A stretch of 10,039 nucleotides of DNA from Akkermansia sp. (lineage in GTDB: Bacteria > Verrucomicrobiota > Verrucomicrobiia > Verrucomicrobiales > Akkermansiaceae), in the NCBI GenBank assembly GCA_017379255.1, contig JAFNWZ010000387.1:1-10039 (forward strand), in the 5' to 3' direction. Shown here piece by piece: positions 7,000-10,039 of the stretch. Position 1 is the stretch's first letter; each line of letters begins with the position of its first letter. The notes beneath the pieces are model-generated. The model had not been told where the DNA came from and did no database searches. It worked only from the letters and a program-made list of their open reading frames with translations. The translations under genes were made by a program, and so were the position numbers.

Positions 7000-7034
7000 A
7001 AAAACTGCTTCCTCTCACCGGGGAAGCAGTTTTT
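7000..7034. terminator. Bidirectional terminator between rplY and the nuclease gene
   Basis: AAAAACTGCTTCC (7000-7012) pairs perfectly with GGAAGCAGTTTTT (7022-7034) across a 9-nt loop: 13 bp with A-tract/T-tract ends on both sides. It starts 25 bp after the rplY stop and ends 8 bp before the stop of the convergent nuclease gene, so it can end both transcripts. Confidence 0.9.
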
Positions 7035-7042
7035 CTTTTGCT

Positions 7043-7810
7043 TTAATCTCTCAGCGGGCGGCGGTCGGCATGCGTGCCGGTTTTACCCTCCTCGCGTTCC
7101 ATGGCGCGTTGTTTCCACAGCGGAATGTGCGATTTGCGGGCCTTGAGGCGGCGGCGTTCTGCCACGCGGGCGCGGTGGCGTTCCTGTTCTTCTGCCACTT
7201 TCCGGGCGTGGTCCTGTTCCCTCTGGGCATTTTCTATGCGCTTGCGGATGCGGGCTGAATGTTCATTGCCCGCCGGTGTGATAGTCCACGGCCCTGCGCC
7301 ACCGGATTCTGTGATGGGCAGGCAGAGCATCTGTGGGTCAATGAAGCGCATCTGGCGGTAGAGCAGGTCTCGTATGGTCGAGAGCAGGGCTTTGGGAGGG
7401 AAAAGTCCGGTGTTGCCCAGCTCAATGGTGAACGCCAGGCGTATATGCTTGGCCTGTAAGCTCATGCGTGCCATTTCCCGCAGGGAGATGCCTTCCTCCG
7501 GCTCCTCCTCCGGCGCGCAGAGCGCCGCTGTGCGCAGCAGGAACAGGCAGTCCCTCACCTTGCGGCAGAGTTTTTCTACCAGCTCGCGCACCTTGGGGCG
7601 GGCGTTGAAGCGGTAATCTTTCACCTCCACCAGCCACAGTTCCTTCTTCCCCGGATGATAGAGCACAAAGTCCATCTCCTTGCAACTGTTGCAGAAGTTC
7701 TGCGCGTGGTGCGAATAAAAGGGCGAGCACTCAAAACGGCACACATAGTACCCCGCTTCAAAATTGAAGCGGTGCATACCTTCCACACAACTGGTACCTG
7801 CCTGGAACAC
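7043..7810 (-). CDS. Putative PD-(D/E)XK nuclease, partner of the ATPase
   Basis: 255 aa, GTG start at 7810. The start is supported by GAGGA at 7824-7820, 9 bases upstream inside the end of the ATPase gene; the gap after the ATPase TGA is 2 bases, so translation is coupled. Residues 46-67 read MDFVLYHPGKKELWLVEVKDYR: D47, then E62-x-K64 on a hydrophobic strand, followed by a helix (about 72-92). This is the core signature of PD-(D/E)XK nucleases. A Cys/His cluster just before it (C24, C28, H34, H35, C40, C43) could bind metal. Middle region 110-180 is of unknown fold. The tail (about 183-255) is strongly charged, Arg/Lys-rich and probably coiled coil, suited to nucleic-acid or partner contact. 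I do not recognise a named family. The inferred role is DNA or RNA cleavage controlled by the ATPase, probably in defence. Confidence 0.7.
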   Translation of the reverse strand: MFQAGTSCVEGMHRFNFEAGYYVCRFECSPFYSHHAQNFCNSCKEMDFVLYHPGKKELWLVEVKDYRFNARPKVRELVEKLCRKVRDCLFLLRTAALCAPEEEPEEGISLREMARMSLQAKHIRLAFTIELGNTGLFPPKALLSTIRDLLYRQMRFIDPQMLCLPITESGGAGPWTITPAGNEHSARIRKRIENAQREQDHARKVAEEQERHRARVAERRRLKARKSHIPLWKQRAMEREEGKTGTHADRRPLRD

Positions 7811-7812
7811 CG

Positions 7813-8898
7813 TCAGATTTCCTCGTTGAGTTGGGGCATGAGACTCAGGTAGCGGTCGGCTTGTTCCTGCTCGGCCTCCAGACTATCCAGGTGGGCGAGC
7901 TTGTCGAGCTCATCGGCCTCGCTCACCCGTTTCCCGTCCACCTTACCCGCCTGCAGCCCGAAAAAGCGGCGGCCCACATTCATGTTCTGCGCCTCGGAAA
8001 GCTGGATGACCAGCTCCCGCAGCAGGAACAGGCTGTGCGTGGTGAGCAGCAGCTGAATGCCCGCGCGGCAGAGTGTCATCATCAGGCTCACGAGCAGGGG
8101 CAGATGCCCGGCATTGAGGTTCATCTCCGGCTCATCCCAGAACAGCGCCGTGCCGGGACGCACCGTGCCGTTGCTGATAAGCAGCCCCAGCGTGCCGATG
8201 CGTTTGAACCCCTCTGCAATGAGGTTGAGCTCCAGCGCCTCCTGGCCGGGACGCTGCAGGTAGAAGCGCCCGTTGCGGCGCAGCAGCTTGCCGCCCAGCA
8301 ACTGCTCAATCTGGCGCACCACATAACGCAGCGCCTGGGGCAGGGGAGTGCCGCTTGGTTCGCTCTCCAGCGCGCGGCAGAGCTCCCAGCTGGCGGAATC
8401 CAGCAGCTCCGGGTAGCGTTTACCTGCCTGCATATAGCAGGGGTAAATGGAAAGCACCTCGCGCGGCGAGAGAAAGACAGCATTGTTTCCCAGGTAGCGT
8501 TCCGGCATGGTGGTAATGCGCAACCCCTCTTCCTCGCAATGTGCTTTGAAGTTGAATGCCAGATCGGCTGTGCCTGCAGGCACTTTTTCGCCCTCCAGTG
8601 ATGCGCGGACCTTTGCCTGTACATCTCTGCCACCCTGGCGAGAGGTGAGACTCGTCAAATCATGCGTGCCGAAAACGCGCAGCAAATCCTGCCGCAAGCG
8701 TTTCTCTTCTGCCCACACCTCGGGTAGATCCCGTCTGCTGCCGCCGCATCCCCATTTGCTGATGGCATAGCAAAGCTTCATCAGGTGGCTTTTGCCCGAA
8801 TCATTGCCGCCTACTATGATATTGATTCCGGGGACAAAATGAAACGACTCCTGGTGTTGAAACACCGTCATGCCTTCCACCGTCAGTTTGCGTATCAT
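7813..8898 (-). CDS. AAA/ABC-type (SMC-like) ATPase of accessory cassette
   Basis: 361 aa from the ATG at 8898 (MIRKLTVEGMTVFQ). Order of motifs: an N-terminal strand-turn typical of OLD/RecF-like ATPases ('FVPGINIIVGGNDSGKS'), Walker A GGNDSGKS at 30-37, a central insert about 50-220, the segment LIAEGFKRIGTLGLLI (226-241) at the signature position, Walker B ALFWDEPEMN with D255/E256, and the switch LLLTTHS (283-289). The tail ends in a charged helix with no TOPRIM or nuclease domain. The family (AAA_21/AAA_15) is frequent in phage-defence systems, where the ATPase senses and a nuclease partner acts; here the partner follows 2 bp downstream. The frame is open to a TTG at 8964, but a promoter -10 (8919-8914) lies inside that extension and an AAGG precedes the ATG at 8898, so the shorter form was chosen. 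GC and codon use resemble the host genes. Confidence 0.85.
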   Translation of the reverse strand: MIRKLTVEGMTVFQHQESFHFVPGINIIVGGNDSGKSHLMKLCYAISKWGCGGSRRDLPEVWAEEKRLRQDLLRVFGTHDLTSLTSRQGGRDVQAKVRASLEGEKVPAGTADLAFNFKAHCEEEGLRITTMPERYLGNNAVFLSPREVLSIYPCYMQAGKRYPELLDSASWELCRALESEPSGTPLPQALRYVVRQIEQLLGGKLLRRNGRFYLQRPGQEALELNLIAEGFKRIGTLGLLISNGTVRPGTALFWDEPEMNLNAGHLPLLVSLMMTLCRAGIQLLLTTHSLFLLRELVIQLSEAQNMNVGRRFFGLQAGKVDGKRVSEADELDKLAHLDSLEAEQEQADRYLSLMPQLNEEI

Positions 8899-8913
8899 AT
8901 TGCCTTGCATGCT

Positions 8914-8941
8914 ATCATACAGGGCAAATGAACGCAAGCAA
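8914..8941 (-). promoter_or_regulatory. Promoter candidate of the ATPase-nuclease operon
   Basis: On the minus strand, TATGAT (8919-8914, 5/6 to the -10 consensus) is preceded at 16 bp by TTGCTT (8941-8936, only 3/6). The expected start near 8907 leaves a very short leader with AAGG (8906-8903) before the ATG at 8898. The weak -35 may mean low basal expression or need for an activator. Confidence 0.45.
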
Positions 8942-8981: not shown

Positions 8982-9003
8982 AAAATGAAAATATTTTCAT
9001 TTT
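8982..9003. repeat. 22-bp perfect AT-rich palindrome
   Basis: Each half is 11 bases, and the centre ATGAAAAT/ATTTTCAT (8985-9000) is flanked by AAA and TTT. It ends 4 bp before the tRNA -35 box and lies about 40 bp upstream of the ATPase -35. Its position and A/T tracts fit an UP element for the tRNA promoter; its symmetry also fits a dimeric repressor site acting on either divergent unit. Confidence 0.7.
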
Positions 9004-9046: not shown

Positions 9047-9118
9047 GCACGAGTAGCTCAGTGGTAGAGCGGCTGTCTTACACACAGTTGGTCAGGAGTT
9101 CGAATCTCTTCTCGTGTA
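9047..9118 (+). tRNA. tRNA-Val, anticodon UAC
   Basis: The full cloverleaf folds. Acceptor stem GCACGAG (9047-9053) pairs with CTCGTGT (9111-9117), with one G-U pair at the end. U8-A9, D-arm GCTC/GAGC, anticodon stem GCTGT/ACAGT with loop CTTACAC (anticodon TAC, 9079-9081), a 5-nt variable loop, and T-arm AGGAG/CTCTT with loop TTCGAAT follow. The discriminator base is A. The 3' CCA is not encoded (the genome continues TAA), so it must be added by the CCA-adding enzyme. Confidence 0.95.
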
Positions 9119-9320: not shown

Positions 9321-10039
9321 TCAAAGAAGTAGGTCGCCTTTTCCTAAATTGCAATCAGAACAGAGTGTTTGCAAATTATCGATAACGGTCTCACCTCCTT
9401 GAGACCATGGAATGATATGGTCAACATGTAGAATTGTTGAAGGGGTCGTAGCGGGAGAGGCACCGCATGCTTGACATTTGAAATTATCGCGAGACAAAAC
9501 TTTAAAGCGCAATCTTAAATTTATATTTCTTGGTGTTTTTCGCGCGTCTGAAGAAGATGTTTTTAATGCGTTTTCTTCGTTATTGTCGCAATTATCGGCA
9601 TAAATATTTATCTCTTCGGAAGCGGAATCATGCTCAGCATCCGTTACTCCATTCACATATGCAATGAACGCCTCTAAGGCTTTTCTCCACCCTCCAAATC
9701 TTCGCTTGTAAGTGTCCAGAGAATACTTAGCGAGCGCCAATTTTTGAACATCAGTTGTTGTAGGTTGTCTGCCTAATGTCACCCACATGCGTTCTATATC
9801 CTCGAGACATTCTTTTTCTGTAACTTTCATTTTTGCTTTGCCCGTTGGAGAAAGTCCCGCCATTGTCAAAGCCGTATCCCAATGCTTGAAGCGTTTTATT
9901 ATGTGTGTTGCCGCATACTTACCCCTATCGCAATAATCTTTGTACGAAATGGTAGCGCTATTTAGTTCTTTTGCTACTCTCTGTAAATCATCAAAGTATT
10001 GCTGATTTGAAATGCGGTTTAGTTCATCTTGATTTCTCG
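9321..10039 (-). CDS. HNH endonuclease with homing-type repeats, 5' end outside window
   Basis: The frame is open from the right edge to TGA at 9321; 238 residues are visible and the N-terminus is missing. A TTG at 9869 is in frame but is not the start, because conserved sequence continues upstream. Numbering from the edge, two repeats of the homing-endonuclease-associated HNH_repeat type are visible: about 14-62, ending KRFKHWDTALTMAGL, and about 77-125, ending RRFGGWRKALEAF. An acidic Asn/Ser-rich linker (about 130-165) leads to an HNH domain: C188-x2-C191, HVDH (204-207), DNLQTLC with N221, and C226-x2-C229, with all metal and catalytic positions intact. It is probably a DNA endonuclease of phage, intron or defence origin; the biological role is not visible. 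The gene is clearly AT-richer than the other genes, a sign of recent transfer. Confidence 0.85.
   Translation of the reverse strand, partial: RNQDELNRISNQQYFDDLQRVAKELNSATISYKDYCDRGKYAATHIIKRFKHWDTALTMAGLSPTGKAKMKVTEKECLEDIERMWVTLGRQPTTTDVQKLALAKYSLDTYKRRFGGWRKALEAFIAYVNGVTDAEHDSASEEINIYADNCDNNEENALKTSSSDARKTPRNINLRLRFKVLSRDNFKCQACGASPATTPSTILHVDHIIPWSQGGETVIDNLQTLCSDCNLGKGDLLL

Follow-up and report, generated by a model that had tools for sequence, protein, structure and literature searches.

The window, a 10,039-nucleotide stretch of DNA from Akkermansia sp. (contig JAFNWZ010000387.1), encodes a two-gene pair of a P-loop ATPase and a small, probable PD-(D/E)XK-type nuclease that belongs by sequence to HEC-02, a candidate defense family catalogued by PADLOC. 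The two genes are adjacent, strictly co-occur, retain intact catalytic residues and are core to the genus Akkermansia. The reading preferred here, at a probability of about 0.55, is that the pair is a divergent, stand-alone HEC-02 lineage, nearly fixed and vertically inherited since before the sampled Akkermansia species diverged, which acts as an ATPase-gated nuclease. The surprising part is the genus-core state, with which a standing immune system and a domesticated maintenance nuclease are both compatible.

On the minus strand of the window, the ATPase gene extends from an ATG at 8898 to a stop at 7813 (361 amino acids) and is followed after 2 base pairs (bp) by the nuclease gene, which extends from a GTG at 7810 to a stop at 7043 (255 amino acids). 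Both open reading frames (ORFs), the gap and the GTG start are as given in a preliminary description of this DNA, and its residue numbering is also correct (K36 and E256 of the ATPase; D47, E62 and K64 of the nuclease), the switch histidine being H288. The HEC-02 ATPase model PDLC04146 matches residues 1-353 (profile positions 1-342 of 344) with an E-value (E) of 3.2e-67, and the HEC-02 nuclease model PDLC04145 matches residues 8-160 (profile positions 5-151 of 170) with E 8.8e-20. The parts of HEC-02 (PDLC04145, 04146, 04213, 04214 and others) are named here by function because the A/B labels of PADLOC are swapped between its submodels. The likeness to the family comprises the match of both proteins, the same D...ExKDY nuclease core, and the adjacent ATPase-then-nuclease order with short spacing, the order being found in the window and in 58 of the 58 loci read. 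Thus, the pair is not the new or little-described two-gene type that had been suggested, because both proteins match HEC-02 models; the claim of novelty is wrong at the family level, and what is new is the genus-core state. HEC stands for Hma-embedded candidate, and such genes sit inside Hma clusters according to passages of two papers (PMC12988326, PMC11411939), one of which includes a passage reporting several HECs, HEC-06 among them, with antiviral activity (PMC12988326). The Akkermansia pair differs in being stand-alone and genus-core: the context typical of HEC-02, although not defining for it (an Hma or other defense operon), is absent from the genus loci. No use of HEC-02 as the name of a defense system was found in the literature searched, where the spelling 'defense' was not combined with it; matches of the string among the literature examined concern unrelated subjects and, as a whole word, chemistry only.

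The named sequences among the near protein matches belong to Akkermansia sp. or Akkermansiaceae, on which the genus name used here is based. Of 76 Akkermansia genomes, 70 have the ATPase, 69 the nuclease and 69 both; the extra ATPase-only genome (G023) carries a distant second copy (32%). Among genomes with a completeness of 90% or more and a contamination of no more than 5%, each gene is present in 53 of 55, the two without a match being G045 and G051, while of the seven genomes that are missing the core pair five are less than 90% complete. The genes lie side by side in all 69 genomes that have both (by coordinates, with 58 loci read in detail). Sequence identity among the core copies of the genus ranges over 52-100% for the ATPase and 46-100% for the nuclease, a conservation far above chance, and NusA identity falls to 52% over the span in which the pair stays nearly fixed.

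The inheritance of the pair follows the species. The nuclease and ATPase trees each keep all seven species clades (6 changes, the minimum, versus a mean of 31 when shuffled), where the clades were taken by eye from a NusA plus IF2 species tree with 51 of 58 rows grouped and 7 ungrouped, and the nuclease tree was built by a quick method. Pairwise identity tracks that of the species marker in 57 genomes (Spearman 0.84 for the nuclease and 0.70 for the ATPase). In several of G063-G074, the ATPase identity is near 52% and that of the nuclease about 73%, which hints at a swap of the ATPase partner within the genus; this is rejected since the ATPase tree retains the same clades. Both genes are under purifying selection, with ratios of nonsynonymous to synonymous substitution (dN/dS) of 0.02-0.15 in 16 of 18 values (nine genome pairs, two genes). 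The remaining two values are 0.00 and 0.33; the higher one involves the G053 nuclease, for which the match is split within the tail. This split and an internal TGA in G070 are what a decaying or neutral remnant might display; such a remnant is hardly credible, being already contradicted by the selection signal and by catalytic residues kept in 58 of 58 pairs.

In a tree with outgroups, the 37 core ATPases of the genus that were tested group together as a single clade with a long stem (support 100/100, stem 1.49). The core copy scores 225 bits with the HEC-02 ATPase model, compared to 348-475 bits for an Hma-embedded relative and two second copies. The second copies, of G058 and G027, are divergent HEC-02-like ATPases (L118:6470-8085 and L119:5496-7101) that outscore the core copy with this model and fall outside the core clade; PADLOC gives no match for the small ORFs next to them. 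The sequences on either side of the pair in G053 are both present in its near relative G051, inside contigs that do not contain the pair; therefore, the pair can be lost or moved. An interspersed repeat of about 60 bp (L099:7440-7500) lies at the edge of the pair-holding block in G053, near a rearrangement boundary, and has dozens of matches in G051 and G062.

The ATPase matches only P-loop families in Pfam (AAA_21, E 2.4e-15; AAA_15; SMC_N; AAA_23), and neither a TOPRIM nor a nuclease domain is detected in its 361 residues by this search, as the preliminary description had held. Residue counts refer to 58 aligned pairs (that of the window plus 57 more) drawn from the 69 genomes with both genes. 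G30, N32, G35, K36, S37, D255 and E256 are each conserved in 58 of 58, and H288 in 57; the intact Walker A, Walker B and switch histidine read from the window thus hold in these pairs, with one exception at the histidine. D255, E256, P257 and E258 of Walker B are also invariant in a 23-row alignment that includes seven outgroups. The predicted fold is of the PtuA/Rad50/SMC-head type: Foldseek returns E 1.6e-13 to 8eea, an entry of PtuA type (Septu or retron PtuAB), and by structure comparison the predicted fold is about as near to SMC heads as to Rad50 heads. Three ATPases outside the genus (L219:6540-7949, L223:9557-10858 and L220:4200-5561) bear an N-terminal extension of about 85-125 residues, which is perhaps a sensor domain; the extensions of L219 and L220 have no Pfam match.

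The partner protein has no Pfam match at all but is matched by HEC-02 nuclease models, in agreement with its putative assignment as a nuclease. E10, D47, E62 and K64 are each found in 58 of 58 pairs, and D47, E62, K64 and K84 are invariant in a 43-row alignment that includes nine outgroups, which bears out the D-x14-E-x-K core first noted in the window; in the predicted model this core sits on adjoining strands (48-52 and 57-65). Compared to HEC-02 at large, the Akkermansia nuclease has four extra cysteines (C24, C28, C40 and C43), possibly a metal site, and a basic tail of about 70 residues (186-255), neither of which is kept in seven aligned outgroups. Two outgroup nucleases (L222:8865-9488 and L223:8926-9639) have a cysteine-rich insertion of their own near the place of the four cysteines.

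Other named systems are matched less well, and the partner fits none of them by HNH, PtuB, TOPRIM or AriB match, as had been concluded from its visible motifs. These include: (i) PARIS (AriA and AriB), which shares an AAA_21-type ATPase (AriA model, E 2.5e-14), whereas the partner here is matched by HEC-02 nuclease models instead of TOPRIM or AriB, (ii) Gabija/OLD, which shares P-loop ATPase stretches (GajA, E 3.4e-9), whereas the ATPase here is of only 361 residues and has no TOPRIM match, and (iii) Septu (PtuAB) and retron PtuAB, which share the predicted ATPase fold and the scheme of an ATPase plus a small nuclease. A true Septu member with an exchanged nuclease would account for the PtuA-like ATPase model; this origin is very improbable, as the PtuA model gives E 3.1e-4 and the sequence models favor HEC-02 by about 60 orders of magnitude, and it is already contradicted by the partner, which lacks an HNH match in Pfam and a PtuB match. 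The BxaP protein of Akkermansia is also distinct from this pair, being a DUF4145 protein (PMC10799925).

Outside the genus, the pair is sporadic. At the family level, the ATPase is matched in 79 of 260 genomes, 70 of which are Akkermansia, and only G131, of another genus, has a full-length match (30%) among the nine others; its pair lies between HmaB and HmaC (E 0 each). A phylum survey of 387 genomes with the nuclease model finds 23 Akkermansia genomes and 7 genomes in 7 of 196 other genera, with G045 the only miss in the genus among the genomes listed and further misses possible among 337 unlisted genomes with no match. The protein searches covered the best 120 of 154 nuclease results and the best 120 of 392 ATPase results. 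A scan of named-species genomes with an outgroup nuclease alignment as the query gave ten loci, four of them records that supplied outgroup sequences, from Lentisphaerae, Acetobacteraceae, Synergistota, an actinobacterium, Chloroflexi and Hymenobacter; in nine of them the nuclease is immediately preceded by the ATPase, which was not detected in L231. Several relatives elsewhere are in defense loci: L120, L219 and L224 have the Hma or other-defense-operon context, with the pair of L219 between HmaB and HmaC, downstream of HmaA, and that of L224 beside PglX of BREX. One of 72,556 plasmids carries the pair (Paracoccus), near a toxin-antitoxin pair, an integrase and a type ISP restriction enzyme, with no Hma operon as annotated. 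Just downstream of the HEC-02 pair of L220 is a PDC-S05 candidate defense gene (L220:6911-7453, E 4.5e-81).

Siting in defense loci holds for some relatives but not for the genus loci, where defense genes are few, not none, and the surroundings are mostly housekeeping. The genomic place of the pair varies between clades while the two genes stay together. Ten flanking proteins at six loci are an FtsH-type protease, an enoyl-CoA hydratase, a nucleotidyl transferase, a GH109 protein, a PEGA protein, an aminopeptidase P, two GDSL-type proteins, a methionyl-tRNA synthetase (MetRS) and a triosephosphate isomerase. For 20 of the 57 loci, flanking ORFs were called with a rough script, and the resulting 91 were scanned with PADLOC at E 1e-20; IetA models matched two ORFs, one being the FtsH-type protease, presumably by an AAA domain in common, and methylase, AbiEii and mad2 models matched one ORF each. 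In the window, the pair lies in bacterial chromosome that encodes rbfA, infB and nusA (named from their sequences by inspection) and rplY (assigned by Pfam), followed by tRNA-Val (9047-9118) and an HNH endonuclease gene (9321-10037) with homing-type repeats (PF18780). The foreign composition noted for the HNH gene is real (guanine-cytosine (GC) content about 0.40-0.43 versus about 0.60 for the pair), whereas neither it nor the tRNA gene is a companion of the pair, as other clades have other neighbors. Any HNH match occurs in 8 of 76 genomes, and in G033 and G043 the gene is on another contig than the pair, so a role as third component is rejected. Near-identical full-length copies are confined to three genomes (that of the window, G033 and G043; 98-99% identity), and therefore the gene is probably recently mobile. 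A recent island beside the tRNA gene is likewise rejected: the GC content of the pair resembles the core, and rplY adjoins the pair in only 4 of 58 loci (G000, G033, G036 and G040).

The regulatory signals credited to the pair stand in part (Table 1). A consensus promoter scan of the minus strand detected no promoter before the ATPase, whereas inspection by eye shows a GCTTGC-N~16-TATGRTAG-like block in several of the 16 upstream regions compared; the hairpin downstream of the nuclease gene is common to the convergent rplY and not the pair's alone. A 22-bp perfect palindrome (8982-9003) lies between the ATPase gene and tRNA-Val; of the 16 upstream regions, just those of G000 and G036 contain it, and a conserved operator is therefore rejected.

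Table 1. Coordinates of the pair, its motifs and its flanking signals in the window.
Feature	Position	Strand	Basis
ATPase gene, AAA_21/SMC-head type, HEC-02 ATPase	7813..8898	-	PDLC04146
PD-(D/E)XK-type nuclease gene, GTG start, HEC-02 nuclease	7043..7810	-	PDLC04145
Walker A of ATPase, residues 30-37, GGNDSGKS	8788..8811	-	K36, S37 in 58/58
Walker B of ATPase, residues 252-258, LFWDEPE	8125..8145	-	D255, E256, P257, E258 in 58/58
ATPase C-terminal helix, residues 338-352, E-x-x-Q-A-D-R motif	7843..7887	-	proposed nuclease docking site
Nuclease core D47-x14-E62-x-K64	7619..7672	-	58/58 genus pairs
Four cysteines of nuclease, C24, C28, C40, C43	7682..7741	-	58/58 in genus
Basic C-terminal nuclease tail, residues 186-255 (long helix 186-224, PLWKxR motif)	7046..7255	-	alignment and model
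Promoter-like block before ATPase, GCTTGC-N~16-TATGAT	8914..8941	-	by-eye likeness in several upstream regions
Terminator-like hairpin between convergent rplY and nuclease gene	7000..7034	.	shared with rplY

In the proposed mechanism, the ATPase would form an ATP-dependent dimer that engages DNA, while its C-terminal helix would restrain the small nuclease. The ATP state may change when a foreign or abnormal DNA structure is met, releasing the nuclease to attack the invading DNA or, if the response is abortive, DNA of any origin. The scheme would be as in Septu, with a PD-(D/E)XK-type blade in place of HNH; we infer its trigger, target, docking, nuclease activity and present antiviral role. 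The helix is present in the predicted model, and its E343, Q346, D348 and R349 are kept in 58 of 58 pairs, which hints weakly at a docking site; the idea is weakened by relatives, as L221 and L224, whose nucleases are 19% and 21% identical, lack the motif, although L223 (20%) has it. ATPase-plus-effector pairs such as PARIS have an ATPase that holds the effector and frees it on infection. By this analogy, and given that the core ATPase is never without the nuclease in 69 genomes, the ATPase could silence a toxic nuclease and free it on infection so that the cell dies, a sub-form of the preferred explanation in which the target is the nucleic acid of the host itself. PARIS is termed abortive in a passage of one report (PMC10799925). 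This version is improbable: a suicide device in nearly every species of a genus would be unexpected.

A defense role for the pair is plausible, and several observations count against it or against the gated-nuclease scheme. The nuclease model has a weak structural match to the PD-(D/E)XK fold, and E10, although invariant within the genus, is not kept in outgroup nucleases. Among ten neighbor proteins of L228, L229, L231, L232 and L235, only two have a PADLOC match (E 1e-10), a subtilase in L229 and a MkoA match near the nuclease of L231, and five of six tested neighbors of L218, L220 and L222 have none at E 1e-8; embedding in defense loci is therefore not general. Viral contigs gave 41 pattern matches, none confirmed, and phage records gave no match; carriage by viruses is thus rejected. 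No activity is reported for the pair in the literature searched, and we know of none. Defense genes usually come and go, and the near-universality, housekeeping surroundings and clade-true inheritance of the pair are unusual for such genes and fit a resident cellular role too. A real rival to the defense reading is, accordingly, a genome-maintenance device, in which a domesticated defense pair serves as a small Rad50-Mre11-like (SbcCD-like) ATPase-nuclease for broken or branched chromosomal DNA. Core status in good genomes, trees that follow species clades, the low dN/dS, an ATPase about equally near to SMC and Rad50 heads, and the genus-specific tail and cysteines suit this role, yet the absence of a match in G045 and G051 suggests, within the limits of incomplete assemblies, that some species can do without the pair, and several relatives elsewhere lie in defense loci; overall, a maintenance role is rather unlikely. 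A candidate defense pair may, tentatively, have been captured once by an Akkermansia ancestor, gained the tail and the putative metal-site cysteines, and become a core, vertically inherited genome-surveillance device, either a standing innate system of DNA integrity or a domesticated repair nuclease.

The preliminary description was thus right in its ORFs, its motifs and its pairing of an ATPase with a PD-(D/E)XK-type nuclease, and its defense reading is in keeping with some relatives in defense operons, while it erred on novelty and was silent on the genus-core, clade-true state that is unusual for a defense gene. One candidate defense family occurs in two states: sporadic, in some instances at Hma or BREX loci or on a plasmid, and nearly fixed in a gut genus. 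The contrast between these states makes it possible to test cleanly at what point an immune nuclease turns into a household gene. If the pair is still antiphage, it would hinder phage infection, and perhaps gene transfer, in nearly the whole genus, and would bear on engineering and phage work with Akkermansia.
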